Shown: positions 10,873 to 37,054 of the stretch, piece by piece
How positions within the stretch are numbered: position 1 is the stretch's first letter
How the letters are laid out: each line of letters starts with the position of its first letter
Source of the DNA: Gracilaria domingensis
Taxonomy: Eukaryota; Rhodophyta; Florideophyceae; Gracilariales; Gracilariaceae
DNA: 37,054 nucleotides
Direction of reading: 5' to 3'
Assembly (NCBI GenBank): GCA_022539475.1
Contig: VCMS01000351.1
Span: 1-37,054, forward strand
The notes under the pieces: model-generated
Told to the model about the DNA's origin: nothing
Databases searched by the model: none
The model's input: only the letters and a program-made list of their open reading frames with translations
Made by a program: the position numbers and the translations under genes

Positions 10873-10896
10873 TCCGTTACCGGCTTCGACACCTCA

Positions 10897-15139: not shown

Positions 15140-15503
15140 GCGGAGTACAACGCGAGGATGGCACGGATCACGACGGTAACAAAAGATCGAACGTCGGACG
15201 GGCGGGAGCGGCGGCGGAGGGAAGAGATTTATTTTTCTGTGCGAGATTGGACAAGTGTACAGCGTACAACGTTGGGAAACCAGAGGATTATAACCAGTGG
15301 TAGATAATACGAGAAGTACAGCCTTGTGTTGAGGTCGACGTGTACCTACGTTCCTTTTTGAACGAAAGCACGTGATTTAAACTCAAATTATATTCTCCGT
15401 TCTGAGCAAGACGTCGATATTGACTGTCGCTCGACCTCCTTCTCCCTTCGGACGCCCTTTCCTTGCAGTCTTTGTCGTCGTTTCTCGTTCATTTCTTCTT
15501 CCC

Positions 15504-19240: not shown

Positions 19241-19586
19241 GGTACGTTGGCGCCGCTGTCCACGTGTATTCGCTGGAGTAGGCTGTACATGGAAGTAAAT
19301 GAGTGTTCTCTTGACTACTATGCAAAGCATTTGAAGAGCATGATTAGAGAGCGCGACCATTGCTCGCGTGAGTCATCATTGCGCGAACTCCACGACTCTA
19401 AAGCGTACAATCAGCGTGCGAGCGGCCACGGACAGGACACGGACGAGACTGGCAGTGCGCTGGGAGGAGCTGCCGAAAGCGGGGGTGCCCAGCGTAAGTC
19501 GCCATTTAAAAGGCTCGCATCCGTTCTTGTATCGTCCAGAGCGAACGTATTGTTGATATAACCTTTCACTGCAATAGCTGTTCAAC
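19206..19586 (+). promoter_or_regulatory. Promoter/5' region of ParB-like gene, copy 1
   Basis: Nearly identical to 34250-34630 of copy 2. It contains a TATA-like CATTTAAAAGG near 19503 about 80 bp before the ATG. Apparent ORFs here are not conserved as proteins and are probably non-coding. Confidence 0.5.
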
Positions 19587-20705
19587 ATGAAGCCAACTCG
19601 TGTTCGAAAGCGTACGCAAAGCGTGACTCCTCGCACTCGGCGGAGCACTCGATTATTGCAAGGTGGAATGCGGGTTTCTCTGCAGATGGATATTGAGAAT
19701 GAAGGAAAGGTGATAGTAGGGTAAGCGTTTTGCATGGAATTGGAAGTGTTCTACGCCGCGATTTGCTCGGGAAGCAATTGGACCCAGGTCTTGTGATGGT
19801 TCATAATATTCTCATCATTCGAAGCGGTCAGACGTTCTACCCTTACCGGGCGGAGGGCCTGGATCTTCCACAATATATCCAGGATCTCCGGACGGCCGCT
19901 CCTTGGGATGGGAAAATGATGGAACCGGTGGCAGCCAGCATTCCGGCGTCCAAGCGAGGAACGGTGAGCGCTATGAGTGAGGTGATGACGCCGACAAGCC
20001 GCACGGAGCCAATTCAAAGTTCATCAACACCGAGAGGTAGCGCATCAGTAGCACCTCCACGGGCAGGTCCGTCGTCTGTTACGAAGCGGTCTATGAAGAC
20101 GAGAGCATCCCCAGCTACGAAGCGGACAGGTCAAACAAAGTCTACCTCCGTTACGAAGCCCACTGCGTCGAAAAGGGCTTCTCCTGCGATGAATCAAACC
20201 GTCGACACAAGGGGATCTTCTGCGTCGAAACAGACGGTTCAGCAGGGGACGGCTGTGCAAGAGGAGGAAGATGAGATCATAAAAGGTCCCTTCCAGACGC
20301 GGATGCGCAATCCGCACAAGGAGCTGGTCCATCTGTACCCCAAACTGCTGCACCAGAAACTGCGGAGCAGCAGGACGATGACGTTGTGCTTCTGTCCGCA
20401 AGAATGGCACGTTCAAGTGTTTCTGGCGAGCGGTCTGGAACACAAGGGACACCTACTCGGAGCAAGACGTACAGACGAATTCGTCAGAAGGTACCAAAGG
20501 TGAACCTCAATTCCAATTTCTGTACAACAAACTGTGGCAGTGGAGAGAAGAAGTGGATTCTGCTATTGGAGACCTGTTGCAGAAGATGGATGCGTTTGTT
20601 ATCTATCCCGGCGATAAAAGTTGCGAAATTGTGGATAACTTCCGGTTTTCACTTCGACAGTCCATTGTACGTGAAGTTAAGGAACAGGTCATTTCGATAA
20701 AGTAA
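19587..20705 (+). pseudogene. ParB-like element gene, copy 1, decayed and internally deleted
   Basis: Same N terminus as the 34631 gene (MKPTRVRKRTQSVT). Lesions seen by comparison: a TAA at 19722-19724, a 1-nt loss near 19728, and a 1-nt loss in a C run near 20289, with further small indels. Similarity to copy 2 stops at about 20511, just before the ParB domain would begin. The sequence then continues with a different open stretch (20514-20705; KLWQWREEVDSAIGDLLQKM, ending VKEQVISIK and TAA). That stretch may be the true C terminus of this gene, brought in by a deletion; copy 2 runs off the window before it could be checked. Confidence 0.75.
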
Positions 20706-20762
20706 CTTTTATGTTTAACTTCTCTAAAAGGTTTACAACACCGAAAAGTCATGTTTCTAACC

Positions 20763-21663
20763 TCAAAGCTGGGGGAATGGGGAGGGGGATAACTTTTCCT
20801 TAACAACGTTGACGTAGTTTGTATGAAAAGGAGCGGGGTCACCGCCTACAATGTTTCTTTCTTGGCGGGAAAAGTCGTAAAAGTACGCGTTCCTAAACTG
20901 AAAGTCGGAGAAAGAAGTAGGAAGCCAACGAGAGTTTTCCCATATGCAAGAAGTCGCCCAACGGTCTCTTCCAGGTTGAAAGTAGTACCTGTCTTAAGCG
21001 AAACTATCTTCAACAGCTCTTTCATTATTGTGAGCACAACCGTACTGCACTCCGTAGCGACTACGTCCATGGGAATGAAACCTCTTGAGGCCCCGACGAT
21101 GTTGAACGCTGATAGCCACACGAGCTTCTCATAATAGCTTACGAGAAATGTGTCTTCGTCGACAACCCCGCAAGTGAGACCCATAGACCTAAACCTGTCT
21201 GCAACGTTGGAGGCCCACTTTCCTGTTGCGACAGTGAGACCATCCGGACTTTGAGGAGTGACACCATCCTGCGGAGCTGCGTTTCTTGAGGGGACACCAA
21301 CGTATAGGACAACTTTTGAACATGTGTCCACACCGAGCTTCGAAACCAATGGTATGATGTCTCCATTCTCGAAGAAAACGAGATTCTCTCTGAGCGAATA
21401 AGGGCAAGCCTGAATTACGGTCTCCAGGGTGTTCGTTCTTTCACAAACTAGTATCGGTACATCAGAAAGATGAGAGGTAGCAGCCATGCTGCAGAATTCG
21501 TGTGCGGAAATGACCGTATCTTCTTCGTTCGCCAGCATGGTACCTATACGCCCCTTCCAACAATAACGGCCCGAGTCCTTCGGGCGGGAGATGAGGCCTG
21601 AGGGACGTCAGAGTATCTGGGACTCGGAGGCGGAGTGGGAGGCATGTCGCACTGGGAGTTCAT
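20763..21663 (-). pseudogene. Ketopantoate reductase-like gene with two 1-nt lesions
   Basis: From ATG 21663 a Pro-rich leader (MNSQCDMPPTPPPSPRYSD) runs into a Rossmann start, TRAVIVGRG, and then hits a stop. One base off, IGTMLANEED continues, so the dinucleotide motif GxGxxG is split by a 1-nt loss at about 21550. The middle has LVFFENGDIIPLV and the C-terminal part has YYEKLVWLSAFNIVGASRG, which resembles the conserved Lys-containing helix of PanE/ApbA-type reductases. A second 1-nt loss near 20922 pushes the frame out; in the neighbouring frame FQFRNAYFYDFSRQ continues to TGA at 20763. The family reduces ketopantoate to pantoate with NADPH. Family call is moderate. It is a host-type gene, now broken or misread. 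Confidence 0.5.
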
Positions 21664-22060
21664 TGCAAGTGTTCGAATCTTTTTGTGTGACGATAGAAAT
21701 GGAAGATGGGGCGGAGAACTGCTGGGGTAAAGAGTGATACTTAAGTAAAAACGGTTAGGAAGCGCAGAACGGGAACATGGTTCACTTTGTGAAAGTGAGC
21801 GAAATGTATGATATGTGATTGTACTGAATGAATGATAGGGCTTGTATGAGACGACAAGCCACAAAGTGTGATGATGTTTTATGAAAGGTAGGTGGAAGAG
21901 TAGAAAGTGTGCAATGAATGAAACTGATTTCGAACCTGAGTTGTAAAGTAGTTGTAAAGTACGAGTTACGGGGAGCTTGAATACAGGATGAAAGGAGCCA
22001 TTTTGGCTTCATAAATGACGTGAACGGGTTTTATAGCTTCAATCAGATTGCCATAATTGA
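21664..22060. other. Gene-free spacer
   Basis: AT-rich, between the 5' end of the reductase-like gene and the epimerase fragment. I looked for the N-terminal part of the epimerase on the plus strand and did not find it. Short minus-strand frames look random. Confidence 0.5.
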
Positions 22061-22381
22061 AAGGATGGAGTTGGATTGCGCCCGAATACGTCTATAAAGG
22101 TCGTAGAAGCACTTATGAAGGAAGGAGTTGTAGACATGTTATTGTTGATGACGGTGGAGCCAGGGTTTGGAGGACAGGCGTTTATGGAGGGTGTTCTTGA
22201 TAAGGTGCGACATGCAAGGGAGTTGTATCCAAGAATAGGGATACAGGTGGATGGGGGTATTGGACTGAGTACTGTGAAAGCAGTAGTGAAGGCCGGTGCA
22301 AACATTTCAGTTGCAGGATCTGCCATCTTTGGCTCGAGTCACCCAGCTCATGTCATAGCTGGTTTTCGAAAGGTTGGTTAG
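22061..22381 (+). pseudogene. rpe: Ribulose-phosphate 3-epimerase, C-terminal fragment
   Basis: The frame from 22061 gives KDGVGLRPNTSIKVV, then DMLLLMTVEPGFGGQAFM, IQVDGGIGLSTV and AGANISVAGSAIFGS, ending in TAG. These are the beta6-loop-beta7-beta8 motifs of ribulose-5-phosphate 3-epimerase, including the catalytic-region MTVEPGFGGQ and the second active-site Asp in VDGGI. The family is about 220-230 residues and only about 105 are here; the N-terminal Ser/His/Asp metal-site half is absent upstream. AAAG directly before GATGG at 22060 could be a former 3' splice site, so this may be a single 3' exon captured or left behind. Pentose phosphate/Calvin cycle enzyme; this copy cannot be functional alone. 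Confidence 0.85.
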
Positions 22382-22445
22382 AGATAGTAGCATAAAATTA
22401 TTGTTTATTACACTGTGACCTTTACGTGTTATCACGACTATATTC

Positions 22446-22800
22446 TCCGTCTCCATTGGAGATGTATTTCTCTTGTATCACAACCGGGAAAGGATGTGAG
22501 AGAACATAAATATATTCCCAGTGAACGCTGAGAGGGAGGATGAACTACTCTACGTCCTATCATTGTTACCCATCCGGTGTCGAGTGGTGACATATTCTCT
22601 TTTTGTCACAACCCACACAGGATATGACGGAAGAAGATGCCCCCAGTCGAGACAGAGGGTCAGCTACTCTAAGTACAATCACTAGTCCCTAGCTTGCCTC
22701 CACTGGCAATATCTTCCTGTTTTGCTATAACTATCGAGTGAGGCTATGATGGAAGAGAAAAATATCGCCGGTCGAGGCGAGGTCGGTGGGGATTATGTGA
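22446..22800. repeat. Three diverged tandem repeats, about 118 bp each
   Basis: Three successive blocks share the pattern TCTC-TTTTGTCACAAC..GGATATGA..GAA..ATAT..CCAGT/CGAG..GAGG (starting near 22446, 22572 and 22690), e.g. TTTCTCTTGTATCACAACC against TTCTCTTTTTGTCACAACC. Strongly diverged. No gene here. Confidence 0.5.
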
Positions 22801-23018
22801 GCGCGAAAGAGGAGACAGAGAGGTGGCGCTTAAATAGTGGAAGGTGCGGGGGTGTACAGTAGATGTTTTGCCGGGAAATGGGATGAGGGAAACAGGGACA
22901 ATCATGGTGCTGGATATAGCCCGTGTGATTGGACAGTGGGGGTGGACAGCACAGTTTAGCTCGATTGCACTGTATCGCAGCGGAAACTTCGATCCAACTA
23001 CTACTTCTTCTTCTGAAG

Positions 23019-23949
23019 ATGTCGAACGGATACGTGATGGATGAGGAGCTGTTGGCGCTGTTGGAGGGGGAGGAGGTACCGCAGACCCCGTCACCAAAGC
23101 GGGAAGAGGACGTGATTACGGCGGCTGGTCGGATGTCGCAGAAGAAGGAAGTGGCCGATGAAGGAAAGAAGTGTGAGGCGAGGAGAGTGGATGGTGATGA
23201 GGTGGAGAAGGGGGTAGAATTGGAGGTGGAGGGGGTCGCAATGGAGAGAAGGGGTGCGGTGCATCTGAGTCAGTTAGAGGTTGGAGACCAGATAGAGAGT
23301 GGGGGCGGGGAGGGTGACAGGGAGATGCGATTTGTGGGGGAGATGAAGGCGAGGGTGGGGATGTTGGGGTTGGTGATGAAGGAGCAACTGGACGATGGAA
23401 TTGTGGAGATTGTAACGGAAATGGGCGGTGTGGTGCTGAGTGGGGGGTGGTAGTGGTGTTTCGGTTGAGGCGATTTCGAGCCTGCGGAATTCGTTGTCGG
23501 TATTGGGAGTGGAGATGAGAAATCATGTGTATGGGATAGTGGAGTGTGCGGGAAGGGAGGTTGGAGAGTTGCGGGAGGAGAACAGGGTTCTGAACGAGAG
23601 GTTGGACGTGCTGGAGAAGGAGGTGAAATAGCTGGGCAAGAGGCAAAGATTGGTGGAAGAGGAGACGGTGAAAGGAGGTGTGGAGGGAAAGACGGAGAAG
23701 GGAAGTGTGGGAAGGGTGGCGGTGCAGAAGGGGTCTCCTGTGACACCGAAGACAAAGGGTGGTGGGGTTGGGGATGGGAAGAGCCGTCTGAAGAAGAGGC
23801 GTAAGGAGATGAAGAAGGTGGTGGAGGAGGTGCGGCGGGAGGGAGTGGGAGCTCCGGTGGTGACTGGGTTTAGGAGTGCGGCGGAGGTAGCGCGGACTGC
23901 GAAGGGGATTCTGAGGGGACAGGAGGAGAGAAGGATGGGAGGGATTTGA
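23019..23949 (+). pseudogene. Unknown acidic/coiled-coil protein with one frameshift and one stop
   Basis: ATG 23019 opens MSNGYVMDEELLALLEGEEV, an acidic protein. At a G run (23437-23447) the frame ends at 23453, while a frame one base further continues (SLRNSLSVLGVEMRNHVYGI, then VGELREENRVLNERLDVLEK, a clear coiled coil). A TAG at 23629-23631 interrupts the coiled coil, after which LGKRQRLVEEETVKGG follows in the same frame. The C-terminal part is basic (SRLKKRRKEMKKVVEEVRRE) and ends at 23949. Very purine-rich coding strand. I do not recognise the family; a gag-like or nucleic-acid-binding protein is possible. Frame and order support one ancestral gene of about 310 residues. Confidence 0.45.
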
Positions 23950-24387
23950 AGCCGTTTTGGGGCGAGGCGGGTATACGAGAAGGGGGAGAGTTGTGCACCT
24001 GACTTCTACAAAATGAACGCGTGATGGGCGAGAAATGGGTAAATAGCGGGGGTGGTGTGGACTGGGAAGAAGTGATGGGATGATTGAGGTGGGATGAGTT
24101 GCGATTGGCATTGCAACATGGGAGAAAATGGAAACGCAAACTAGCACGAGTGCAGTTTTGAGAGAGGGTCGCGGAAAAGAGTGAATGGGACCATGCGGCG
24201 AAGTAGAACCTCTACAAAAACTAGGGGACCCAAGAACTAAACTGCGCGAGATGGAATTTAATATTCCAAAATTTCTTGATTTTTTGAGTGCCAGCCTCTG
24301 CTACCCCTTCGCGCGCCCGAAATAGACCCAAAACTAGCTTAGTTTCCAAAGCGAACAGACTATATTCCACTTTGCAGAACACAGACG
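23950..24387. other. Spacer upstream of copy 2 transposase
   Basis: No supported gene. It differs completely from the DNA upstream of the same codon in copy 1, so the left break of copy 2 lies at 24388 or immediately before it. TTTGCAG at 24371-24377 resembles a splice acceptor 10 bp before the ATG. Confidence 0.5.
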
Positions 24388-27186
24388 ATGGATTATCTCA
24401 CGGTTTGTCTGGCTTCAGTAGCTTCCAACCTTAGTCATCGTGAGGCTGACGAGCTAATTGGGCTACTTCGGGACCCGCGATTCTCGCAAAAGCGATTCAA
24501 CGAGACCATAACAAGTTCCAAGCGCTGTACAGAACTGAAGAACGCCATTTTCGAACGATACGCCTCAAAGGACGGTTTCAATCGAAGAACTGTCTCGCCA
24601 GAAGGATGTAAGTTCAGCGCCACCCTCTACACGAGAGACCCCGTTCAGACACTTGTGAAACAGCTCCAGTTGGCTAACAACGAAAACACATTCTTCCACC
24701 CTATACCTCAGACCCACTCCACGAAAATATCTCACCCCATGTCCGGCTCTCTCGCAAGAGACGCCACCTCAAAACTTAAGGAAATGGTCATGAGCTCTTT
24801 AGATAGTAGAATAGTGTGGTACTCCCAAGAAATAAGTTACAGTGAATCTTTCGTAGGTCTTCTGCAGGTATACACCGATAAGTCTTCAACAACTCTAAAG
24901 CAAACATCGGTTACCGCCTATCCTCTTCACCTCATATTTCTCAACTTCTCCGACGAGCTTCGCCGTAAGTGCATCCGTGATGACCTCACAGTAGTGGCAT
25001 ACTTCCCTACCACACTGATCGAGGTTTCCGCATCTGAAGCAGACGCAATGCCATTCGTTTCTAGCAAGTCTCTACGTGAGTCCAGGATGCAAGCGATTCA
25101 TGAATCTCTTCGTCAAGTCCTCGAGCCCATTCTAAATCTCACGCAGAAAGGTTTTCAGTTCATCGACGAAGACAAACTAAGTCGAGTGTGCCATCCTCTG
25201 CTTGCAAGTTATTGTGCGGATATTCCTGAGGCTAAGGACATTCTGTCCATTCTTCATGGGACCAAAACGGAAAGCCCGTGTCAAAGATGCAAAGCCCCTC
25301 GCTCATCTTTATGCAGTCCTATTCCCACCTCATTCAACGGACGTTCTCAAAAGCACACGAAAAGCATCCGAAAGACATACACAGCTATCTTGCAACATGC
25401 ACAAAAAGACGAGGCGGAAAGACGTCCACGTCGTGCGAGGGAGAGGAGATCTCAAGCGGATACTCTGATGCGTTCAAATTCCATATCTCTCATTCCTTCG
25501 TTCCTCGAAACTTCCGTAAGCCTTGGAATGATCCCGGGATTGTCTCCATACAGTCTGTTCTCATTCGAACCAATACACAACTTGCATCTCGGCATCTCAA
25601 AGTTGATAAAAACGGCCACAATCGAGAGACTGCAGTCAGACACCCTGTGCACCACAATAGGAACATCTGCATCGCGTTCATTTCGAACGATACGCACCCA
25701 ACTCCTCAACCATGCAAACGCAATTCTAGCTGCCATAGAACGCGATGCTCCTGCCAAAGGTTTACATATCGATTTCTCCACGCAGGAGAAAGGCAAATCT
25801 TTGATTGGTATCTTCACGAAAGACGGTCTCCGTGGAATGCTGGAGGCCAAAAACTACAAAACACTTGACATTGTCTTCCCCTTCATAGGAGCATTCTTTG
25901 ACATATGCTGTGGAGAACAGGACGTTGCCCCAATCACAACCGTTTTCTCTCAGTACTCGGACTTGCTTTCGACCTTATTCAGATACAATCGTGACCCGTA
26001 TTGGATTGAAAGCTCTCTCCTGTGTCTTAGTTCGGAGATTGAAGCCTTCAAGCGTTCCGCAACAAAGACTCTGGCGGATTTTCATCCCTCCAGACTGGGA
26101 ACTCTGAAGTTTCATCTTCTCGATCATCTCGTGGACGATATTCGCCGTCTGGGAAGTATCAAGTACTACGACGCAGGCATATACGAACATGCACACCTGC
26201 TGTTTAAGAGACACTACAAAAAGACGTCCAGAAGAACAGCAACGGCTGTGGAGGAGACTATTCGCTCCATTGAGCACGGACATGTTAAAAAGCAATGGAA
26301 TGGCAATACTCCTTACCAGCGTAATCCAGGTTTACCAGGAACTTCCACACAGCTTCCTTGGTTTGCAATGAGACGGCGTTCTTTCACTTTACGAGCTCTT
26401 CAACATTGTGTTTCAAGTATGTCCAGTTCAAAAACATGGACTGCTGTTAGAGAGATGTTCTCAAGTAGAGACACAAGGTCGATTCTTGATCAAATTGATG
26501 ACCAGGCCCTTCCTCCTTTCCTCAGTCTCGTGAAAGAAACACTGGATGAGCACTCTATTACATACTTCCCAGAAAAGACAAGGATAACTCTGGTGAATTC
26601 GGCCCTTGTGAAAGGCGGTTTCGTTCCGACTCTTGAACACTTCGATTCGTCTTCTAAGGCACTTAAGCTGGGACGACCCAAATACCCCATCATCCAACGT
26701 GTCTTCGCTTCTCCAGCATTTGGTCCCAGTAGAAAGCCAAAGTTTTCCACTCTATTGGTAAGCGGAGAAGATTCAGAGACTTGGGTTGCCCAGGTAGTCG
26801 CTCTGATTCGAATATCTCTCCTTCATTCTGCACTTACCGGACCAGAGGTGGCATTTGTCCGGTATTTCGAGGTTTTACCCCCCGCAACAAACATCGACCA
26901 CATATTGAAATGCATATCTTTACGGTGGGCTACAAACGATGAAAAGAACCACACTCTTCCGTTCCCTCGTCATTCCAAAGCGGAGACTATCGTAGAGTTA
27001 ACTCCTTGGTACTGGATGGTTCCGGCTTCTGCACTACAGGGAACTGTCCATGTTGTTCGATCAAACTACCCTGCTCCACCTTTTTGTCCTCCACTTCAAT
27101 GGTTTCAACACCGATTCTACATCAATCGATTCTATCATGATTCAGATGAAGGACCAACTGAGCACGTTGATCTTGTACAGCCTTAA
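24388..27186 (+). CDS. Plavaka/KDZ-like transposase, copy 2, lacks N-terminal zinc finger
   Basis: 932 residues, uninterrupted. Likely catalytic residues: D164 (VYTDKSS), D278 (YCADIPE) and E600 (IYEHAHLLF), with a zinc-type pair C298/C301. FSFEPIHNLHLG at 392-403 matches the conserved D/E-x-x-H motif of the family. The C terminus missing from copy 1 is present: WVAQVVALIRISLLHS, FVRYFEVL, ALQGTVHVVRSNY and FYINRFYHDSDEG. Similarity to copy 1 begins exactly at this ATG, which in copy 1 is an internal Met, so about 127 N-terminal residues including the C2HC finger are lost. It cuts and joins the element's DNA ends in the nucleus, if active. Its TAA overlaps the TAA of the convergent gene (27183) in a shared TTAA. 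Confidence 0.8.
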   Translation: MDYLTVCLASVASNLSHREADELIGLLRDPRFSQKRFNETITSSKRCTELKNAIFERYASKDGFNRRTVSPEGCKFSATLYTRDPVQTLVKQLQLANNENTFFHPIPQTHSTKISHPMSGSLARDATSKLKEMVMSSLDSRIVWYSQEISYSESFVGLLQVYTDKSSTTLKQTSVTAYPLHLIFLNFSDELRRKCIRDDLTVVAYFPTTLIEVSASEADAMPFVSSKSLRESRMQAIHESLRQVLEPILNLTQKGFQFIDEDKLSRVCHPLLASYCADIPEAKDILSILHGTKTESPCQRCKAPRSSLCSPIPTSFNGRSQKHTKSIRKTYTAILQHAQKDEAERRPRRARERRSQADTLMRSNSISLIPSFLETSVSLGMIPGLSPYSLFSFEPIHNLHLGISKLIKTATIERLQSDTLCTTIGTSASRSFRTIRTQLLNHANAILAAIERDAPAKGLHIDFSTQEKGKSLIGIFTKDGLRGMLEAKNYKTLDIVFPFIGAFFDICCGEQDVAPITTVFSQYSDLLSTLFRYNRDPYWIESSLLCLSSEIEAFKRSATKTLADFHPSRLGTLKFHLLDHLVDDIRRLGSIKYYDAGIYEHAHLLFKRHYKKTSRRTATAVEETIRSIEHGHVKKQWNGNTPYQRNPGLPGTSTQLPWFAMRRRSFTLRALQHCVSSMSSSKTWTAVREMFSSRDTRSILDQIDDQALPPFLSLVKETLDEHSITYFPEKTRITLVNSALVKGGFVPTLEHFDSSSKALKLGRPKYPIIQRVFASPAFGPSRKPKFSTLLVSGEDSETWVAQVVALIRISLLHSALTGPEVAFVRYFEVLPPATNIDHILKCISLRWATNDEKNHTLPFPRHSKAETIVELTPWYWMVPASALQGTVHVVRSNYPAPPFCPPLQWFQHRFYINRFYHDSDEGPTEHVDLVQP

Positions 27187-28320
27187 ACATTAAGGGCTCC
27201 ATCCTTTACATGTTCACCTTGTGGTGCCTTTTCTTGTGATCCTGTGTTACTTCCGAAATCGTTCATGTCCATTTCCTTGAACTCCATATCCCCTTCCTCG
27301 CATTCACCAACGAAGCAATCGCTAATAGACCCCAATCTTCGGCTCACACTGTCAATAAAAAATTGTTCTTTCACAGTGAGGTAAAGTCTTCCGTTCGACG
27401 GCATTCGATATCCAAATGTAGCCTCTCTCATGTCATTACCAAGAACCTTGGTCCAATCTTCCGTTGTCGTTCCAAAATTATGAAACTCGCTGGAATTGGT
27501 CCTCAAGACACGTTGCCTAACATCCCCCAGAACATTCTTTAAACACAGAGGTAGCAGTTCGGCAAACTTCTTTGTAAACAGTTTCTGTCTCTGGCCACCC
27601 CTTGACACATCCGTACTTAGAAGGCTCACAACCGTCAACACCCAAGCGTCCAAACGTGCGAGCAACAGTATTGTGCCATCTAAAAAGGTGCCCGTATCCT
27701 TGTCTTCCACATCATACCCAATAAACTCCTTCAGTACTTGTACCCCGACACGGTTTCGGAAGAACAAGTCTTGATCCTCCGTCGGCATATCCTCGACATT
27801 GTCCGCATTGGAGTACTTTAGACCAAGAAATGGGGCTTTTCTCCACCATGAAGTGTTCGGTACACCATTTTCGTCAAGACGCAGTATGTTCTCCTGCGCT
27901 TCCTTCAACTGCATTGTGAGTTCGTCAGCATTCTCTTCTACCAGCTTTGTTCTTCTCTAAATCAGATCGTACCCCAGGAGCAGAAATAGTTTATCCCTCG
28001 TATTTCTCTTCCGAACGCCCACGACGTCACTCATGGTCTGCCGCATTCTCTGCCTAAGGCACATATCTGGACAAAGTTCCAGTATACACCTGTCGGTAAG
28101 AGATGCTTTTCTAATACCTTCCCAGCTCAACTCCTTCAACTCGCTTTCAACCATTTTCTTCAGCAAAGCATCTGGCCCCCCCTCTACCGACGGTGTGAAC
28201 ATGCCAAAACTGCCCAAGAGCTCCACGGGGTTTTTAGGAACCATGTATGAACCACCTTCCTCCGGCTCAATAAGCCCTTCCCCACTCTCAGTTGCGTCTT
28301 CCACCTTCTGGGAAGGTTAC
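27183..28320 (-). CDS. Unknown element protein with coiled coil and acidic C terminus
   Basis: The frame from about 28320 encodes VEDATESGEGLIEPEEGG, then a helical region (LLKKMVESELKELSWEGIRK), and meets TAG at 27957. The same frame resumes with KLVEENADELTMQLKEAQEN, a coiled coil, and runs through WWRKAPFLGLKYSNADNV and TILLLARLDAWVLTVVSL to an acidic tail (GDMEFKEMDMNDFGSN) and TAA at 27183. CTGATTTAG at 27957 looks like a splice acceptor, so the TAG may lie in an intron. Upstream, AAG/GTGAGT and TTCCCAG/AAGG near 28345-28308 look like a 37-nt intron joining this gene to the coiled-coil ORF described next. Family not recognised. Lost entirely from copy 1. Confidence 0.5.
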
Positions 28321-28344
28321 CCCAATTTCGGGTGAGCGACTCAC

Positions 28345-29550
28345 CTTCGAGTTATAGCTCACTTGTTTCTCTCCTTGCCCACGTCAGCATGTTGTGATAC
28401 ACTGCTCGAGCAACCCCTCGAAGCTCGTCGCACACCTCAATTTTATGCTTTTTTCGACCTGTCTGCCCAGATTCACCAGCACGTGTACTCCTATCTCCCT
28501 CCTGTTTCAGTGCCCCCTTAGCCCTTCAATGACTAGATCCTTCTCTTCAAGCCTCTTTTTCAAAGCCGTACTCTGCTCTTGGGCGACCTTTACTAGAATT
28601 CCCCGAACCATCAAGTCCTCTTGTAGCGTCTTAACCTTTTCTTTCAAGCAATTCAGTTCATTTAAAAGATCACGTCTGTTCATAGAGGTTGAATTCACAC
28701 CAGTGTGGATATCTTCCGGTATTTCCCTAGCCTCTTCGGCGACAGGCCCCGGTAATGCCGCAGGATTCGGTGTTATTTCGTTATCGGAACTATCCTCATG
28801 TGCCATAGCCTTAGACACGAGAGGCTGCAGGCGTTCTGTGTCCACCCTTGGCACGGCTCCGAGCTCCAACTCCCGTGTCTGTCCTCCTCCATTGCATCGT
28901 ATATCAGAAGAATTGGGCCTCGTACGAGCATCAACGACCCCCGTTCTGGAAAGAGGGGAAGGTCGAGGAGTAAATCGTCTATCATTTGTCTCTCGATTTC
29001 TTATTGTCTTTCTCCCTTGTTCGGACCCATTGCGAGGCATAATATGATTCATAGCGGCCCCAGTTCTAAAAGACAGGGAGGGACGTGACGATCTTAATAT
29101 ACTAGGGCTCTCACGACTTCTCGTCATTGTCCCTTGTTGTCCAGGTCCACTGGGCGGCGTAACCCGCGCCCCAGTAGCTCCGGTCTTCGATATCGGCCGG
29201 GGACATGAAGGTTTTGGTGTCATACGAACCTCTTCGGTTCCAGTTGTCATGCCCTCCTGTCCTGACCCGCTGGGCCGAGTTACCTCATCTTCTTGAGGAG
29301 CAGAGACAGATGCACGATTTGCATTATCGGCAGTTGACGGCACGACATCGTTCGCTGATCCACGAATTCTTGACGCAATCCCGGAAGACGCTGCGCTGCA
29401 AGATGGGCGAGAGAGTACTGTAGAAGGACGCCCACTGACTCTCTCCTTCGTCGAGGACGACTTCCGTTTAGAAAGTGCGGTGCTTGTAGCCTGATTCGTA
29501 TCATCCGATGCTCTTCTCTTTTCTGTCCACTCTTGTTCCGCTGCGTACTA
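28345..29550 (-). CDS. Repeat-rich and coiled-coil protein, frameshifted
   Basis: The open frame from about 29550 to 28507 has three imperfect tandem repeats of about 39 residues; each begins like TRPSGSGQEG, VTPPSGPGQQG or IMPRNGSEQGR, contains an arginine-rich middle and ends in K/RTGA-type motifs. After an acidic stretch (HEDSSDNEITPNP) comes a heptad coiled coil (LLNELNCLKEKVKTLQEDL, then TALKKRLEEKDLVIEGL). At 28508-28520 a G run (GGGG) shifts the frame by -1 and ALKQEGDRSTRAGESG continues to about 28340. No clear ATG at the 5' end. Probably the N-terminal part of the gene that continues to 27183. Function unknown; the basic repeats suggest nucleic-acid contact (inference). Confidence 0.4.
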
Positions 29551-29819
29551 CTTCGCTTTTCGGCGTTATACCCATGTTGTGGAGATAAACGGGGTAATGA
29601 AACGAAATTGTTGGCGGGGGAGAGGGGTGGGGGGGGTGCATGGTTCAGATATTCCGGGAGACTCCGCAGTTCCTGCTTTTTAGGAATTTGAGGTTCGCAA
29701 TGGGTCGCAAATATCGCCGTTACAGATGAAGAGCTCCAGTGTACATGTACAACAACGCGTATTGCAGACAGCTGCAACATTCACAAGCATATTTACTTTC
29801 TATTCGGTACTGAACTCAT

Positions 29820-30490
29820 CTATTGCTCCAATGTCAGAGCCCAGTCCCAGGCGTACTGCTCTCTGTAGTTGAAATACAACTCTTCGCCCCTCTCAATATC
29901 TCTTACTGCTCTACAACGAAGTAGAGCATAGTTAGAAAGGTCGGAATTAAACTGTATCACGGACTTCGCTTCCACCACCTGCACATTGGCACTTCGAGTC
30001 CTGTTTGACCGGGGCTCCGATAAATCGGGATCCCCGGCATGATATCCGGCGTCGTTAATGTAGCCCCCGATACAAAAAGGCCCAGGACAATGTACACTTC
30101 GCTCTCCTTTCTATCCTGAGCCTGTCCTGGTCTGTTCCTCAGGTGCAGAAACTCCGTACCAGTCACAGTGACCATCATAGAAAACAACTTGTACCGCACT
30201 GGAGTTGCTCCGAGACAGCCACTTCCATACGTTAAGTGTCTTTCCTTCCGGTTCGTCAGATCCGTGTATACCAAAGTTCCATAGAAATGACAGATAGTTT
30301 CCCCAGCCAATATCTTATGTTCCGTGAACACCCCCATACCAGCACGGGGATGTCGAATCTTAGAAGATGCTATATGTAAGCGATAGCGATTGGCTTCAAC
30401 AGTCAACAGCATATGAATATCCATTAGATTCAGAGCTTCTCGGTACTTCCCTCCCAAAGATCTACAGTACGCTGTCCACACTTGTCGACA
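29820..30490 (-). CDS. SET-domain protein (methyltransferase), one frameshift
   Basis: The first frame (about 30450-30065) contains IRHPRAGMGVFTEHKILAGE (GxG start of SET at about 30340-30326) and TICHFYGTLVY, the usual E/G..I..Y.G beginning of the domain. At a G5 run (30064-30068 on the plus strand) the frame shifts by -1, and YINDAGYHAGDP, NRTRSANVQVVEA, NYALLRCRAVRDIERGEELY and FNYREQYAWDW follow, ending TAG at 29820. NxxxANV and the RDIxxGEEL-FNY signature are the cofactor and catalytic-Tyr parts of SET enzymes, which methylate lysine on histones or other proteins. It immediately follows the DNA methyltransferase domain, with only a frame change between, so the two may have been one fused protein. 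Confidence 0.7.
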
Positions 30491-31704
30491 AAGTCCCAGT
30501 CCTTCCAGTATCTTCCTAGGAACTGAGTAATATGTCCAGGCATCACTTGGTACTGGAGGTAACCAAATGAAGCCTCCCATTCAAGCCGACCTCGGTCCCG
30601 ATGTGGAACCCGTTCATAAGTCGTTGAAGCCGCATCCACCACCTCCTGTTCAACCAGGATGTCATTCTTCCCCCCGCGAATAACTTCGGCCATAAGAGTC
30701 GTTATATGGTGCTTCGCATGACTGAAACATGGCCTATTCTTCTCGCACCCCAAGAACTTCCTATGCTTTGTCAGCGATAGGCACGCCATACCCGTAGAAA
30801 AAGTTCCTGCGAACATGTCCATGACAAGATCACCCGGTCTTGTGAAGCGACATATCAACTCCTTCATCAACTCCCTCGACTTCTGCTCCGGTCTTATGTA
30901 CTGCCCACCTGGTACTGAACTACCTGGCTCGTGTACCTTCCATGTCAACCACTCCCCCGCTCTCGGTTTGGCACCCGGTCAATTACATTCCTGTTAGCCG
31001 GGAAAGTAGAAGGAATGAAATTGTTCTCCTCAAATGGAGTAAGACTGGCTTCCTCCGATGGTCGCAATCCACGCTTCACCCCATGAACGGCGTACTCCGT
31101 TACGGGCTGTATCCCAAACTTCCGTGGATTCCCTCCAACATTACTGCGATCCCGTATGAACACCAGTGGATTCGCATCCACTTTAAACGAAGGCATGAGT
31201 TCTGGTTTACCTTCGCTTCCAGCTTCATCTTTCGTACTCGCCGTTTCCGAAAGTATCCTGTGCCAAAATGAAACTGTGCCATGGCACAGAATATAATGAA
31301 GTGCCCACCTGACCGAAGCGCGGAACTTATTAAGTCAGCCGTACGGATCATGTCATCTCACTGAAGACATCGTGACCACTATTCCGTTTGTTCCTCTTCC
31401 TTCGAGTGTTAAAGGGAGGGTCTGTTAGGACAAGCTGTGCCTCACCCCATAAAATCTCACTCTGATTCACAAACGTTTCGTGTGTGTGCCTCAGGTCCGT
31501 CATGTCACAGTTGTACGCTACAAAGTGTGACTTTCTCATCCCCTTCCACACCTTGTCCATATTCATTCGAAGGAGACTGGATATCCCCTTCATGGGCGGC
31601 TCAATACCAGTCTCTTGGATGTTGTAACCGGCAACCCGAGATTCATGCTCCGCAAGATTCACCGGCTTCTCGAAGTCGTCGCTATCGGAGCTCACGAGGT
31701 TCAT
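30430..31704 (-). CDS. DNA amino-methyltransferase (beta order, DPPF), frameshifted
   Basis: Four minus frames, each -1 relative to the one before, together give one domain. 31704-31348 ends with LVLTDPPFNTRRKRN (motif IV DPPF at 31422-31411). 31351 on continues with SALRSGGHFIIFCAMAQ. The third frame gives FWHRILSETASTKDEAG and FKVDANPLVFIRDRSNVGG. The fourth (to 30430) has PGDLVMDMFAGTFSTGMACL (SAM-binding motif I, about 30830-30770) and KFLGCEKN. Motif IV before motif I is the beta arrangement of amino-methyltransferases, most of which make N6-methyladenine when the motif starts with D. It acts on DNA in the nucleus if expressed. A prokaryotic-type enzyme on a eukaryotic transposon suggests horizontal origin (inference). 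Deleted from copy 1. Confidence 0.75.
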
Positions 31705-32360
31705 ATACTCTCGACGAGGTGGGGTGGGGCAGACTTGGTCGAAGAAGGTTCGCCATTACCGGAAGTTTTAGGGGTTTTCGTCAGTTCAATATCAGGTTTC
31801 GCGTGAATGCCGACATGGAACCCTGCCGCATGACGCATATCCTGTATCGGTTTCCATAGCAACTCCGAAAACTTCTGAAATCGAGCAGGCAACTCACCGG
31901 AGTCAGAACCAGATACGGTATCCATCCGTATCTCCGAAAACTCTATCCAGTTCCTCATCTGATCAGCCCGTAAGCTATAGAGGCTATTGTGGGTGCATAC
32001 GGTTTCGAGGTCTGTCAAAAATTCCTTAGCCAGTATTCGGAGGTTTGTATCGCATTCATCACTCAAGGTCTCCACCGATCCACTAGTACTGCTCTGTGGC
32101 ACATCGTTTGTGTTGAATCGAGTACTCTGGCTCGGCGGGGCATAACCAGACTCCCGTGTCTCTAGCGCCGTATACTTCAACGTCTGCATATTCATGTAAA
32201 TGTATGGTTTCACCATATGCTGAACGTTCGTGTATCCAAGATGAGCCGCAAAACAACTCCATGCCCATACGACCTCACTGATAGCGAATCCCAGTCGATC
32301 ACAGTTGTCTTTGGAGAACGACGTAAAAGTGGGTATGTACACAGATGGTGCATGGTTCAT
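31701..32360 (-). CDS. Unknown element protein (ORF2)
   Basis: 219 residues from ATG 32360 to TGA 31701. N-terminal part is hydrophobic/aromatic (VVWAWSCFAAHLGYTNVQHM), followed by a Ser/Thr-rich linker and a helical half (NLRILAKEFLTDLETVCTHN, FQKFSELLWKPIQDMRHAAG). Family not recognised. It overlaps both neighbours by ATGA, with ATG of one gene sharing bases with TGA of the previous. It may be a separate protein or the N-terminal part of the methyltransferase polypeptide, perhaps a target-recognition or partner region. Confidence 0.5.
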   Translation of the reverse strand: MNHAPSVYIPTFTSFSKDNCDRLGFAISEVVWAWSCFAAHLGYTNVQHMVKPYIYMNMQTLKYTALETRESGYAPPSQSTRFNTNDVPQSSTSGSVETLSDECDTNLRILAKEFLTDLETVCTHNSLYSLRADQMRNWIEFSEIRMDTVSGSDSGELPARFQKFSELLWKPIQDMRHAAGFHVGIHAKPDIELTKTPKTSGNGEPSSTKSAPPHLVESI

Positions 32361-32947
32361 TTTCGTTTCTTTTTCGGTTGTTTCTTCTTCATCATTCGGA
32401 TGTTGTCCTTCTCTCCCATTATGTGGCCGAGGTATGATAAGTATATAACGACCTCAAATGGGTTCACAGCTGTTGGTGGGATGAACATGTCGTCTTCAGA
32501 ACCTGCTTTCTCCTGGTCATGAAATAACCAACCAGGCATCGCACCGGTAGGTATATACCATATCCATAGAGAGAAGAGAAAATCGCGCAGTCTCTGGTCC
32601 TCATCCACGTCCTTCTTGTCAAGAAGCTTCGTCACAAGATATCGTTGTTCCACAGGTTTGTTATTCACAACACTCTTTCGCAGCTGTTGCAGTGTCAAGT
32701 TCTGCAGGTTCTTGGAGTTAGTGGCGTCCTCAAACATCTTCCTTGCCTCCGGAATATCCTTATAGTTCTCGGCGCAGAACTCTATTAACCCTCTAAACCC
32801 CACGTCCCGTGGGCGATCAGGGCCTCCATCGCTGTTTGCCAAAGCATCGCGAAGAACCAAGAAAAGTCTGACATATGCATGGAACGCCGGAGGCGGAGCA
32901 CTCATGTCGATAGGATGTATCTCCTCTCCAACATCGGTGGAATCCAT
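32357..32947 (-). CDS. Unknown element protein (ORF1), first of the minus-strand block
   Basis: 196 residues from ATG 32947, ending with a very basic tail (MMKKKQPKKKRK) that looks like a nuclear localisation signal. The body is helical and acidic (FCAENYKDIPEARKMFEDAT; LLDKKDVDEDQRLRDFLFSL). Not recognised. A TATA-like TTTAAA (32977-32982) lies about 30 bp upstream in the inverted promoter copy, so transcription may start close to this ATG and M15 (MSAPPP) could be the real start. It is the first gene read out of the palindromic control region. Confidence 0.5.
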   Translation of the reverse strand: MDSTDVGEEIHPIDMSAPPPAFHAYVRLFLVLRDALANSDGGPDRPRDVGFRGLIEFCAENYKDIPEARKMFEDATNSKNLQNLTLQQLRKSVVNNKPVEQRYLVTKLLDKKDVDEDQRLRDFLFSLWIWYIPTGAMPGWLFHDQEKAGSEDDMFIPPTAVNPFEVVIYLSYLGHIMGEKDNIRMMKKKQPKKKRK

Positions 32948-32959
32948 CGCTTCAGCGCA

Positions 32960-33064
32960 AACAACGGAGGCGAGCCTTTAAATGGCGACTTACGCTGGGC
33001 ACCCCCGATTTCGGCAGCTCCTCCCAGCGCACTGCCAGTCTCGTCCGTGTCCGTGTCCGCTCGG
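32960..33064 (-). promoter_or_regulatory. Inverted copy of the ParB-gene promoter segment
   Basis: About 100 bp here is the near-perfect reverse complement of 34465-34570 (shared phrases AAATGGCGACTTACGCTGGG and CGCACTGCCAGTCTCGTCC). Both contain TTTAAA and both point towards the adjacent gene, so the divergent minus and plus genes would be driven by the same promoter type. Confidence 0.75.
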
Positions 33065-33204
33065 AGCGATAGCGTCGCGTGTCGGCCACGTCGCGATTCG
33101 GAGCTATTGCAACGGTCCCGTATTGTGCTAAAAGTCGCGGATCAAGTGGGTGTGAAGCGCTAGTTTTTCTAGTTTGATATATGTGCACGGCGTGTGCAGC
33201 GAAA

Positions 33205-33748
33205 TCACTGCCGGAAGTGCCGGGAGGAGTGTTTTGGGAGGTCTCTGGAGGGTGTCAAAAAATCGTCCAAAACGTGCCCGCGGGCGGGGGGGGGGGGGTC
33301 GGTCGTGTTAGGGTGGCTACCCTAACACGACCGGACCCCCCGCCCGCGGGCATAAAATCGCACATTTTTCAAAAATTCGTCGAAAACGTGCCCGCGGGCG
33401 GGGGGGGGGGGGTCGGTCGTGTTAGGGTAGCTACCCTAACACGACCGGACCCCCCGCCCGCGGGCATAAAATCGCACATTTTTCAAAAATTCGTGGAAAA
33501 CGTGCCCGCGGGCGGGGGGGGGTCGGTCGTGTTAGGGTAGCTACCCTAACACGACCGGACCCCCCCGCCCGCGGGCATAAAATCGCAAATTTTTCAAAAA
33601 TTCGCCCAAAACGTGCCCGCGGGCGGGGGGGGGGGTCGGTCGTGTTAGGGTAGCTACCCTAACACGACCGACCCCCCCCCGCCCGCGGGCAGGTTCTGGC
33701 CACATTCTGGCACCCTCCGGGGACCTCCCAAAACACTCCTCCCGGCAC
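33205..33748. repeat. Palindromic array module 2a (four palindromes)
   Basis: Four hairpins centred near 33315, 33431, 33540 and 33653 with the same 32-bp core as in copy 1 (the first has one changed base, GGGTGGCTACCC). Spacers read in the opposite orientation to those in 34004-34206. The module begins with GGAAGTGCCGGGAGGAGTGT and ends with its reverse complement (33720-33750), so it is bounded by inverted repeats. G runs reach 12 bases, C runs 9. Confidence 0.95.
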
Positions 33749-33952
33749 TTCCTGTACCCACTGCGTCACCTCAGTGCCCCATCCCGGAAATTAGGGAGTG
33801 TCTGGATGGTGGAGAAGACGGGATGGTCACCTCAGTGCACCATCCCGGAAATTAGGGAGTGTCTAGAGGGTGAAGATGACGGGATGGTGCACGCACTAAC
33901 TTCCTGTACCCACTGCGTTACCTTGAAGGTGACGCAGTGGGTACAGGAAGTG
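33746..33952. repeat. Nested inverted and direct repeats between the two array modules
   Basis: Arms CACTTCCTGTACCCACTGCG (33746 on) and their complement (33927-33952) enclose two 61-bp direct repeats (33767-33827, 33828-33888). Each starts CACCTCAGTGC and contains CATCCCGGAAATTAGGGAGT. A second, tighter hairpin is formed by 33899-33923 and 33926-33950. No gene. It is absent from copy 1, so it is a later insertion or a rearrangement product. Confidence 0.85.
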
Positions 33953-34270
33953 CCGGGAGGAGTGTTTTGGGAGGTCTCCGGAGGGTGTCAAAAAATCGTC
34001 CAAAACGTGCCCGCGGGTGGGGGGGGGGGGGTGGGTCGGTCGTGTTAGGGTAGCTACCCTAACACGACCGACCCCCCCCCCCCGCCCGCGGGCACGTTTT
34101 GGGCGATTTTTTGAAAAATGTGCGATTTTATGCCCGCGGGCGGGGGGGTCCGGTCGTGTTAGGGTAGCTACCCTAACACGACCGATCCCCTCCTTCCGCG
34201 GGCACGTTCTGGCCACATTCCGGTGCCTTCCCGGGACCTCCCAAAACACGCCGCCCCGCAGTGATTTCGC
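33951..34270. repeat. Palindromic array module 2b (two palindromes)
   Basis: Two hairpins centred near 34053 and 34167, spacer orientation as in copy 1 (CACGTTTTGGGCGATTTTTT). The module is again bounded by the GGAAGTGCCGGGAGG-type sequence on the left and its diverged complement on the right (CCTCCCAAAACACGCCGCCC). Confidence 0.95.
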
Positions 34271-34464
34271 TACACCCGGCCGCCGGTACGTTGGCGCCGC
34301 TGTCCACATGTATTTGCGGGAGTAGGCTGTACATGGAAGTGAATGAGTGTACTCTTGACTACTATGCAAAGCATTTGAAGAGCATGATTAAAGAACGCGA
34401 CCATTGCTGGCGTGAGTCATCATTGCGCGAACTCCACGACTCTAAAGCGTACAATCAGCGTGCG

Positions 34465-34630
34465 AGCGGCCACGGACAGGACACGGACGAGACTGGCAGT
34501 GCGCTGGGAGGAGCTGCCGAAAGCGGGGGTGCCCAGCGTAAGTCGCCATTTAAAGGCTCGCCTCCGTTCTTGTATCGTCCAGAGCGAGCGTATTGTTGAT
34601 ATACACCTTTCACTGCAATAGCTGTTCAAC
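34465..34630 (+). promoter_or_regulatory. Promoter region of ParB-like gene, copy 2
   Basis: TATA-like TTTAAA at 34549-34554, 77 bp before ATG 34631. 34465-34570 is repeated inverted at 32960-33064 and directly in copy 1 near 19420-19520. Conservation between copies and inversion in front of the divergent gene support a promoter. Confidence 0.6.
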
Positions 34631-37054
34631 ATGAAGCCAACTCGTGTTCGAAAGCGTACGCAAAGCGTGACTCTTCGCACTCGGCGGAGCACTCGATTAT
34701 TGCAAGGTGGAATGCGGGTTTCTCTGCAGATGGATATTGAGGATGAAGGAAAGGTGATAGTCGGGGAAGCGTTGTTGCATGGAATTGGAAGTGTTCTACG
34801 CCGCGAGTTGCTCGGGAAGCAATTGGACCCAGGTCTTGTGGTGGTTCATAATATTCTCATCAGTCGAAGCGGTCAGACGTTCTACCCTTACCGGGCGGAG
34901 GGCCTGGATCTTCCACAATATATCCAGGATCTCCGGACGGCCGCTCCTTGGGATGGGAAAATGATGGAACCGGTGGCAGCCAGCATTCCGGCGTCCAAGC
35001 GAGGAACGGGGAGCGCTATGAGTGAGGTGATGACGCCGACAAGCCGCACGGAGCCAATTCGAAGTTCATCAACACCGAGAGGTAGCGCATCAGTAGCACC
35101 TCCGCGGGCAGGTCCGTCGTCTATTACGAAGCGGTCTATGGAGACGAGAGCATCCCCAGCTACGAAGCGGACAGGTCAAACAAAGTCTACCTCCGCTACG
35201 AAGCCCACTGCGTCGAAAAGGGCTTCTCCTGCGATGAATCAGACCGTCGACACAAGGGGAACTTCTGCGTCGAAACAGACGGTTCAGCAGGGGACGGCTG
35301 TGCAAGAGGAGGAAGATGAGATCATGAAAGGTCCCCTTCCAGACGCGGATGCGCAATCCGCGCAAGGAGCTGGTCCATCTGTACCCCAAACTGCACCAGA
35401 AACTGCGGAGCAGCAGGACGATGACGTTGTGCTTCTATCCGCAAGAATGGCACGTTCAAGTGTTTCTGGCGAGCGGTCTGGAACACAAGGGACACCTACT
35501 CGGAGCAAGACGTACAGACGAATTCGTCAGAAGGTACCAAAGGTGAACCTCAATCAGTACCGGATGGTTGTTGTTACTGTTGACATCACTCTGGTGGACA
35601 CTCCGCCCAATTTACTCCGTGGAGTAAGTAAACGCCACGTTGAAGCCCTTGTGAAGAGTATGGAGGAGCGGGGGATATTGCAGTCGATGGGTTCTCCAGT
35701 GGTGGCCTTACAAGATGCTACTACGGGAGAGAGGGATACTGACAAGGGACGCCTAACGAAGAAGTGCTTCATTGTAGATGGTTTGCATCGTCTGAAAGCT
35801 ATACAATATTTGGCAGGGACTGGTGCACCGAAGTGGAAGCGATTAGCCAAGTTTTGGCGTTGCAATCTGCTGATACGAAGAGATGGGAGGCCCATTGGGA
35901 TGAAGGAATTGTTATGTGTTGCTTCGTACCTCAATGAGTCGACGAGTACCATGCGAAGGATGATGTTTGCAGACAAGATACACTCTATAGTTAGTGTGGT
36001 CGCCATTCTAATTGAAGATGTTGAGGGGGTGACGCCGGCAGACGTGGATCCTGCAGAAGTGACAGAAGTGTTGAAGGAGAGCCAACTGATTGGGACTGTG
36101 CAAGAGCGTCAGTACCTGAGATATGCCAATGTCGCCCTGCAACTCATGTCTCGTGAGGGAATGCTGGCCCATTTCGAGGATATATGTGAGACTGTGAGTG
36201 ACATAGGTCTCACACATCTGTCCCATACTCCGCTATATGTTTTGGATGCCGAGGAGTTTTCCTTCATTCTTGATTGTCTTCAGATGTTTCTATTGAAGGG
36301 CAAGTCGACGAAGACAAGCAATGGAAAAGCTTTGAGGAGGTTCGAGGTTTCTTTTATGATAGAGCAGTGTCTCTGTTCCGCGCGGCTCGAGCAGTGAGGA
36401 ATGAACTGAACGAGGAAGAGTCCATGGAAGTGTTCCTGAAACGCGAAGTCAGTCTTTCTGCTCCATCGAATGAAGATGACGTTGAAGACCCAGACAACAA
36501 CGCAGCTGTGTATCAGTTCCTTTTGGGACAAGTTGTGAACTTCAACACTTGCCGCGTGTTCGGAGCAGGACGAACTCAATTAGAACTGCCACGACTTCCG
36601 TTCAGAATCGATTGCGGACGATGCTCAAGGTAATTCCGCCCCCCGCACCAGTGAAGCAGTCCGTGACGAAGAGGAGGACTCCCGCTGCTGCTGCTGCAAC
36701 ATCTGCCAGTGAAGAAGGGGAGCCGCGAAGAGGTGCACGAGAACGGGCGCAGGTGAGTTATAGGGAAATTGAACACGGCCGAAATCGAGGTGCCATAGAA
36801 GTTCTGGATGCTCTGATGAAGAACGGCGGGCTCCGCGAGGAAGAAACGGAGAAAGACTTTCACACAACAGATGAGATCTACTCTGAACAGCATGACACGG
36901 GATGACCTGATGTCTCAACTAAATGAACATGTGCTGAGAGGAAGGTCGATGAAGGTTCAGTTCGTGGCATTGGGAGAGGGAGCGAATGCAGAGATCGCAG
37001 GCAGTTCTGCATTGTGGATGACCGAAGCTTCTTTCTGTGACATTTCCACGGGTT
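34631..37054 (+). CDS. ParB/sulfiredoxin-like domain protein, 3' part beyond window
   Basis: ATG 34631 (MKPTRVRKRTQSVT). Residues 1-110: basic start and a compact region (ILISRSGQTFYPYRAEGLDL). About 120-300: Ser/Thr/Lys-rich low-complexity repeats, then acidic and Arg-rich stretches. From about 35560 a ParB-type domain: KRHVEALVKSMEERGILQSM, then CFIVDGLHRLKAIQYL (35767-35815), where DG-x-HR is the family's signature, then a helical region with MKELLCVASYLNESTSTMRR. In bacteria ParB grips palindromic parS sites and clamps on DNA using CTP; related domains are nucleases or phosphotransferases. A 98-nt intron (GTGAGA at 36186 to TTCAG at 36283, phase 1) joins the frame to an acidic exon (GQVDEDKQWKSFEEVRGFFY). 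Beyond about 36600 several frames look coding and further introns are likely (GTGAGT at 36752). The exon plan there is unresolved. Confidence 0.65.

Follow-up and report, generated by a model that had tools for sequence, protein, structure and literature searches.

A giant Plavaka-type transposon in the red alga Gracilaria domingensis carries a methyltransferase-SET fusion and a ParB-like gene that may mark the element's own DNA or chromatin

Why should a transposon carry genes for enzymes that appear to mark DNA and chromatin? The question is raised by a 37,054-nt stretch of the red alga Gracilaria domingensis (assembly GCA_022539475.1, contig VCMS01000351.1, positions 1 to 37,054; hereafter the window), which holds two adjoining copies of one mobile element (Table 1). 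A first-pass annotation had gathered a Plavaka-type transposase, a DNA methyltransferase, a SET domain and a ParB-like gene into a single 12.7-kb segment. Our analysis agrees that these parts lie in one mobile element, but the segment proved to be only the window part of the second copy (copy 2), which continues to contig position 44934. Judged from its sequence, the element is a DNA transposon of giant size, about 22 kb when complete, and its transposase is of the Plavaka type.

To define the element, we examined its transposase and its ends. The open reading frame (ORF) of the copy 2 transposase, which is open from 24343 and runs to 27186, matched the Pfam family Plavaka (PF18759) at 4.2e-20 and passed the cut-off, which upholds the earlier reading of its motifs. 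The C(2)C and H(3-4)H motifs that serve as the Plavaka criterion are present as CQRC and HLLDH, a check that covered their presence. The left end, CGTCTGTCTCTTGCAGATGC, and the right end, CTTTGCAGAACACAGACG, are imperfect inverted termini common to window copy 1 and other copies. With up to two mismatches allowed, the left end occurs 563 times and the right end 576 times in the genome, and a reversed-pattern control gave 0. The termini (CGTCTG..CAGACG) differ from the TGT..ACA or CATCA..TGATG of PlavakaA and PlavakaB, and on these features the element is Plavaka-type by its transposase and is assigned to neither of the two sublineages. Movement by cut-and-paste is presumed from the transposase type.

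Ten end pairs were picked by hand from the listed ends and fetched to look for target duplications. A 2-bp direct duplication was present at seven of the ten and absent from three, with a chance expectation of 1 in 16 for each. Four further copies were read by eye; the duplication was seen in those on contigs C178 (AT) and C505 (TA), and none was seen in that on C51 or in window copy 1. We also paired ends among the matches listed: all 100 right ends entered this comparison, together with the 91 left ends on contigs no later than C64, the nine on C65 and later being left out. This gave 46 elements bounded at both ends, with a mean length of 14.3 kb: 14 of 10.0-11.3 kb, 17 of 12.3-15.4 kb, nine of at least 20 kb and six of other sizes. 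By extrapolation from about 570 ends and this mean length, the family would make up approximately one tenth of the assembly; the genome size of G. domingensis is given as 78 Mb (PMC10388701).

The copy on C178, bounded at both ends, served as our reference for the gene set. It contains, in order, the transposase (+), a coiled-coil-looking gene (-), the methyltransferase-SET gene (-), the palindromic array region, the ParB-like/dioxygenase-like gene (+), a HAD hydrolase (+), a second HAD (-), a reductase-like gene (-), an epimerase fragment (+) and another coiled-coil-looking gene (+). Essentially the whole of the C178 copy is matched by those on C29, C505 and C51, which likewise have both ends; identity is mostly 97-99% in the long blocks, with some blocks at 78-95%. 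The copies on C169, C617 and C56 match the C178 gene set to the limits of their contigs. The copy on C465 is rearranged and has part of the block twice, in opposite orientations. The copy on C41, the only 13.8-kb one mapped, is without both the methyltransferase-SET gene and the ParB-like gene.

The first-pass annotation had treated the methyltransferase and the SET domain as separate genes. This did not hold, since the two belong to one fused protein of which homologous fusions are known. When the minus-strand frames of the window (29.8-32.9 kb) were searched separately, the N6_N4 methyltransferase scored 1.1e-11 and the SET pieces only 0.0015 and 0.092, below the Pfam cut-off, because frame shifts break the gene in the window copy. 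Read through as a single protein, the same frames matched N6_N4_Mtase at 5.3e-15 (residues 505-742) and SET at 7.8e-7 (residues 871-1028), both over the cut-off, so that both domain calls stand. The DPPF motif (motif IV) is at residue 510 and precedes FAGTFST (motif I), which begins at residue 714. A search with residues 430-1042 against 5.8 billion proteins, with a limit of 1e-3, returned 16 relatives of 638 to 1,082 amino acids (aa), among them a protein of Chondrus crispus, with identities to the fusion of 30-45% locally and 24-41% over the full-length alignment. Within the aligned family, the query included, N6_N4_Mtase was detected in 17 of 17 members and SET in 16 of 17. Across this family DPP never varies in motif IV, nor do D and G in motif I; in the SET part Y, YG and N-D are invariant or nearly so, and the GxG and GEEL..Y motifs are present.

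Compared with the Protein Data Bank (PDB), the family profile matched DpnA (3e-14), CcrM, MboIIA and RsrI, all N6-adenine methyltransferases, with the methyltransferase part, and EZH2 weakly (1e-4) with the SET part. Published motif types assign DPPY/F to N6-adenine and SPPY to N4-cytosine methyltransferases (PMC8885841). Because of both the DPPF motif type and the N6-adenine relatives in the PDB, the predicted activity of the fusion is likely to be that of an adenine methyltransferase. A viral or bacterial origin of the whole fusion was considered and rejected: at least 64 viral and 28 prokaryotic loci match the methyltransferase part alone, and none of these loci matches the SET residues.

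The block of cargo genes is not confined to the window, so that the condition named beforehand as a refutation, its absence from all other copies, does not hold. With up to three mismatches, methyltransferase motif IV was found at 198 sites genome-wide and VDGLHR, the motif of the ParB-like protein, at 235, and controls gave 0. Pairing of the two motifs used exact sites only, 100 listed of the 198 and 100 listed of the 235. Contigs C1-C212 contain 84 of the listed methyltransferase sites, and for 51 of these a listed VDGLHR site lies divergently on the opposite strand 2.5-6.5 kb away, where chance would give about 0.006 per site. The other 33 sites were unpaired, six of them within 4 kb of a contig start. 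The motif content of the 46 paired elements likewise comes from exact sites, so presence is a lower bound. Among the nine elements of at least 20 kb, five have both motifs, three have VDGLHR alone and one has neither; among the 37 shorter elements none has both, three have VDGLHR alone, three have the methyltransferase motif alone and 31 have neither. These counts by element size indicate that long elements typically have the pair and that shorter ones have lost one or both of its members. The earlier proposal that the ParB-like gene travels with the transposase is thus borne out by the other copies, but not by the comparison with copy 1 on which it was based, because that copy keeps only about the first 308 codons of the gene, up to 20511, and no ParB-like domain. 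Together, the sequence supports the boundaries of the element, the 2-bp duplication in most copies checked, the copy number, the repeated occurrence of the gene set, a fusion that is conserved, and intact catalytic motifs in the predicted methyltransferase.

We then asked what the partner gene encodes. Its counterpart on C178 has open frames of 868 aa and 452 aa, the second overlapping the end of the first. Three annotated G. domingensis proteins (P0001, P0002 and P0019) match the gene; P0001 and P0002 join both frames, with gene models that skip the dioxygenase core, and P0002 is 100% identical to locus L014 over 323 aa. A fungal host, also considered, was rejected in view of these matches. 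Outside G. domingensis, no relatives of either frame were present among the best 8000 candidates by shared words in each search.

The assignment of VDGLHR to a ParB-type protein has moderate support. Neither the window ORF nor the C178 frame had a credible Pfam match, ParB included, but both gave a ParB-like match in PHROG (7e-4 for the window ORF and 1.3e-3 for that of C178). An hhalign comparison with eight bacterial ParB sequences, one of them a wrong frame, was not significant (one of 20 shuffles scored higher), and a profile of seven bacterial ParB proteins placed the VDGLHR protein at rank 108 of 3752, where it was not detected. A 17-sequence profile was made from these seven and from ten ORFs of viral and bacterial contigs in which a ParB-like region and a methyltransferase motif are joined. 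With it, the protein ranked, along with its own copies, directly below the true ParB proteins and above every one of 500 shuffles; its E value was 0.08 among 3,752 sequences, and the probability from hhalign was 65%. The profile comparison score was 33.9, compared with at most 21.1 in 200 shuffles, and the three of 300 real ORF pieces that outscored it all came from ORFs inside the profile. A phmmer search of the PDB with the protein returned no significant match. These results suggest that the VDGLHR protein likely has a ParB-like fold.

The second C178 frame contains HTD, AGSH and GDVTH in that order, which we take to be 2-oxoglutarate dioxygenase motifs. At the level of motifs, this frame looks like a 2-oxoglutarate dioxygenase, a reading that profiles did not confirm: there was no Pfam match (TET/JBP included) or NCBIfam match, tblastn against phages gave none, and phmmer against the PDB gave nothing significant. 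A seemingly divergent dioxygenase in C505 (43% identity) was ruled out as a frame-broken stretch beside an N.

The two cargo genes face away from each other across the palindromic array. The arms that flank the array in copy 2 are inverted to each other and identical at 91 of 93 nt. With near-identical inverted arms placed one before each divergent gene, the anatomy is that of a shared regulatory or loading region. Each window copy has six palindromes, and across ten copies the number ranges from 0 to 6. Genome-wide the palindrome occurs at 1,229 places and its reversed pattern at 0; of 50 listed places, at least 31 fall within one or other of the 46 paired elements. Two tandem 61-bp units, 92% alike, separate two palindrome groups at window 33765-33886. 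A telomeric origin of the palindromes, hinted at by the half-site GTTAGGG, is unsupported, as the assembly is without any (TTAGGG)4.

We propose, with about an even chance of being right, that this Plavaka-type transposon has its own DNA- and chromatin-marking module, which would let the element avoid or tune host silencing. The module would consist of the fused beta-class N6-adenine methyltransferase-SET protein and the divergently encoded ParB-like/dioxygenase-like protein, with the palindromic array between them. The fusion would write N6-methyladenine (6mA) on element DNA and would methylate a lysine on chromatin at the element. The ParB-like protein would bind the palindromes, place the activity and co-regulate both genes, and it is the combined marks that may allow silencing to be avoided or tuned. 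A stricter version is possible though doubtful, in which the one polypeptide marks both DNA (with 6mA) and histones and the ParB-like protein nucleates on the palindromes of the element, targets the writer there and spreads. If true, this would amount to a counterpart, run by a transposon in a eukaryote, of parS/ParB combined with phage DNA modification.

Several observations weigh against the proposed marking module. Four of the nine long elements are without one or both motifs, counting exact sites only, and the block is dispensable in cis, because there are 198 methyltransferase sites for approximately 570 ends and 31 of the 46 paired elements, all shorter than 20 kb, have neither exact motif. 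No palindrome is present in the C178 copy, which has every gene of the set. The classical NHSC motif of SET lysine methyltransferases is not kept, an invariant N-D (residues 965-966) standing in its place, and the dioxygenase-like part scored no better than shuffles against a 3-sequence PhyH profile. The fusion is also frame-broken in the window copy, but a broken frame in one copy says little because the breaks differ among copies and at least one stretch (C505) looks poorly assembled. Among nine copies, changed sites at the first, second and third codon positions numbered 34, 36 and 58 in the methyltransferase-SET gene (58 of 128 at the third) and 33, 29 and 33 in the ParB-like/dioxygenase-like gene (33 of 95). 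Since the third-position excess is mild in the former and there is none in the latter, most differences between copies look neutral after insertion, and selection among copies appears weakly visible at best.

Other roles for the same genes were weighed. The module could restrain the element, with DNA and lysine methylation keeping copies quiet and limiting copy number. There is a precedent in rotifer N4CMT, a bacterial-type DNA methyltransferase that acts with histone methylation in silencing transposons (PMC8885841). We consider self-silencing unlikely here, as the 563-576 ends in 78 Mb and the high identity of most long blocks suggest strong recent amplification. It is likewise unlikely, in our judgment, that the marks serve to time transposition, with adenine methylation at the ends or promoter coupling excision to replication and the ParB-like protein chiefly repressing the divergent promoters. 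Dam methylation couples Tn10 excision to replication in this way, and such timing would fit both the position of the palindromes, which separate divergent genes and have near-identical inverted arms on either side, and their 1,229 places in the genome, 31 of the 50 listed being inside paired elements, but the full gene set of C178 exists without a palindrome. That the genes are passengers, captured and amplified with the transposase and of no use to the element, is very unlikely: the apparent epimerase gene fragment, the weak selection signal and the many elements without the block would agree with it, but the fusion is conserved over deep divergence with invariant catalytic residues and recurs with the ParB-like gene in a fixed order.

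Table 1. Coordinates of the element copies and their parts in the window
Feature	Position	Strand	Remarks
Copy 1	14046..24387	+	10.3 kb, internally deleted; both ends common to other copies; from blast map
Copy 1 transposase	15420..18305	+	Pfam Plavaka 7.3e-18, cut-off passed; end from blast map
Copy 2	24388..37054 (part in window)	+	5'-truncated; ends beyond the window with the same right end
Copy 2 transposase	24388..27186	+	N-terminal part missing; Plavaka match ~24616-25381; CQRC, HLLDH
Coiled-coil-looking gene	27183..29547	-	Three frames in window copy; 535-aa open frame in C178
Fused DNA methyltransferase-SET protein	29820..32947	-	~1,040 aa; several frame breaks in window copy
SET domain, C-terminus of fusion	29865..30340	-	Limits approximate; Pfam 7.8e-7
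Beta-class N6_N4_Mtase domain	30727..31437	-	DPPF, then FAGTFST; limits approximate, by hand from frames
Left arm of 93-nt inverted repeat	32960..33052	.	5' side of methyltransferase-SET gene
Array of six palindromes	33281..34199	.	Copy 2, between divergent genes; core GTCGTGTTAGGGTAGCTACCCTAACACGAC
Right arm of inverted repeat	34479..34571	.	5' side of ParB-like gene
ParB-like/dioxygenase-like gene	34631..37054	+	Cut by window end; ParB-like stretch ~35555-35834

Neither window copy is complete. Copy 1 has neither the methyltransferase-SET gene nor either HAD gene, and its partner gene is missing the ParB-like domain and the dioxygenase-like region. In C178 coordinates, copy 2 has lost 1,837 bp from the start of the element, the transposase N-terminus included, and an N-terminal Cys/His cluster (MVYYCTHKKRGCPF...) found in the copy 1 transposase is missing from it. 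The junction of the two copies, at 24387/24388, falls exactly on the transposase codons ATGGATTATCTC, and no target duplication accompanies it; this is a rearrangement or an assembly join rather than a simple insertion. Directly after the window, an N run (contig C351 37055-38529, L009:1-1475) masks most of the copy 2 dioxygenase-like part. From contig C351 44935 onward (L009:7881 onward), beside the copy 2 end, a frame contains GVPQGD and FADD, which we take to resemble reverse transcriptase motifs; copy 2 probably adjoins a non-LTR (long terminal repeat) retrotransposon. Outside the element, a dispersed repeat at window 10816-11676, 78-84% alike, also occurs near element copies in contigs C51 and C465, and at 3608-4951 a stretch of at least 300 nt is present in two direct copies, 1,044 bp apart and 95% alike.

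Among the remaining cargo, the two convergent HAD-type hydrolase genes (C178 element positions 15396-17466, L016-L017) are 47% identical over 240 aa, and their counterparts in window copy 2 are in L009. One keeps DVDGT, presumably the HAD motif, and the other reads SVDGT and may be a dead paralog. The C-terminal half of a ribulose-phosphate 3-epimerase, in a frame without a start codon, is found at L017:2367-2684, window 22061-22378 and contig C351 42614-42931; it has no stop in 149 of the 150 matches listed, of 456 candidates, and is perhaps a captured gene fragment. The reductase-like gene (L017:1093-2047, minus strand) is by eye like ketopantoate reductase, with no Pfam family and no significant match by phmmer in the PDB. 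The coiled-coil-looking 535-aa frame of C178 matched no Pfam family, and the Pfam scans of window and copy frames turned up no tyrosine recombinase.

As a comparison, fungal Plavaka transposons carry TET/JBP genes that are proposed to help them escape silencing (Kojima 2025, PMC12730594). They share with this element a transposase with C(2)C and H(3-4)H motifs, a 2-bp duplication and a DNA-modification cargo; they differ in that the cargo there is a TET/JBP oxidase, whereas here it is a methyltransferase-SET fusion with a ParB-like/dioxygenase-like protein, in a red algal host and between CGTCTG..CAGACG termini (PMC12730594). The giant repeats of Amoebidium appalachense are also very large and gene-rich with a Plavaka transposase, which flanks them, and their gene matches include red algae (PMC11244446). 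Unlike the element described here, they form tandem clusters of up to 50 kb with many tyrosine recombinase genes, and the section describing them mentions no methyltransferase-SET or ParB-like gene (PMC11244446). The rotifer N4CMT-chromodomain protein is similarly a eukaryotic fusion of a bacterial-type amino-methyltransferase with a chromatin domain, but it is a host gene product with SPPY that deposits N4-methylcytosine (4mC) and reads a histone mark (PMC8885841), whereas the fusion here has DPPF, is transposon-borne and is joined to a putative histone writer. Phages and bacteria have ORFs in which a ParB-like N domain occurs together with an N6_N4-type methyltransferase; there the two form one polypeptide with no match to the SET part, whereas here they are two divergent genes. 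Fungal Starship elements are likewise giant cargo-carrying transposons, but these are classified by a tyrosine recombinase, and the element here has a Plavaka transposase, inverted termini and 2-bp duplications.

Within the open-access literature, the titles and abstract openings of the matches listed show no transposon-borne methyltransferase-SET fusion and no Gracilaria Plavaka, and a high-copy multi-gene Plavaka-type element with recurring epigenetic cargo is not found described there. Transposons with their own epigenetic enzymes are already known, the fungal TET/JBP carriers being an example. An adenine-methyltransferase/SET fusion carried by an element of high copy number would be cargo of a new kind. 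It makes testable a disputed question, namely whether 6mA marks transposons in a complex eukaryote and what writes it, and G. domingensis offers a built-in comparison for this, with hundreds of copies in one genome that are with and without the module.

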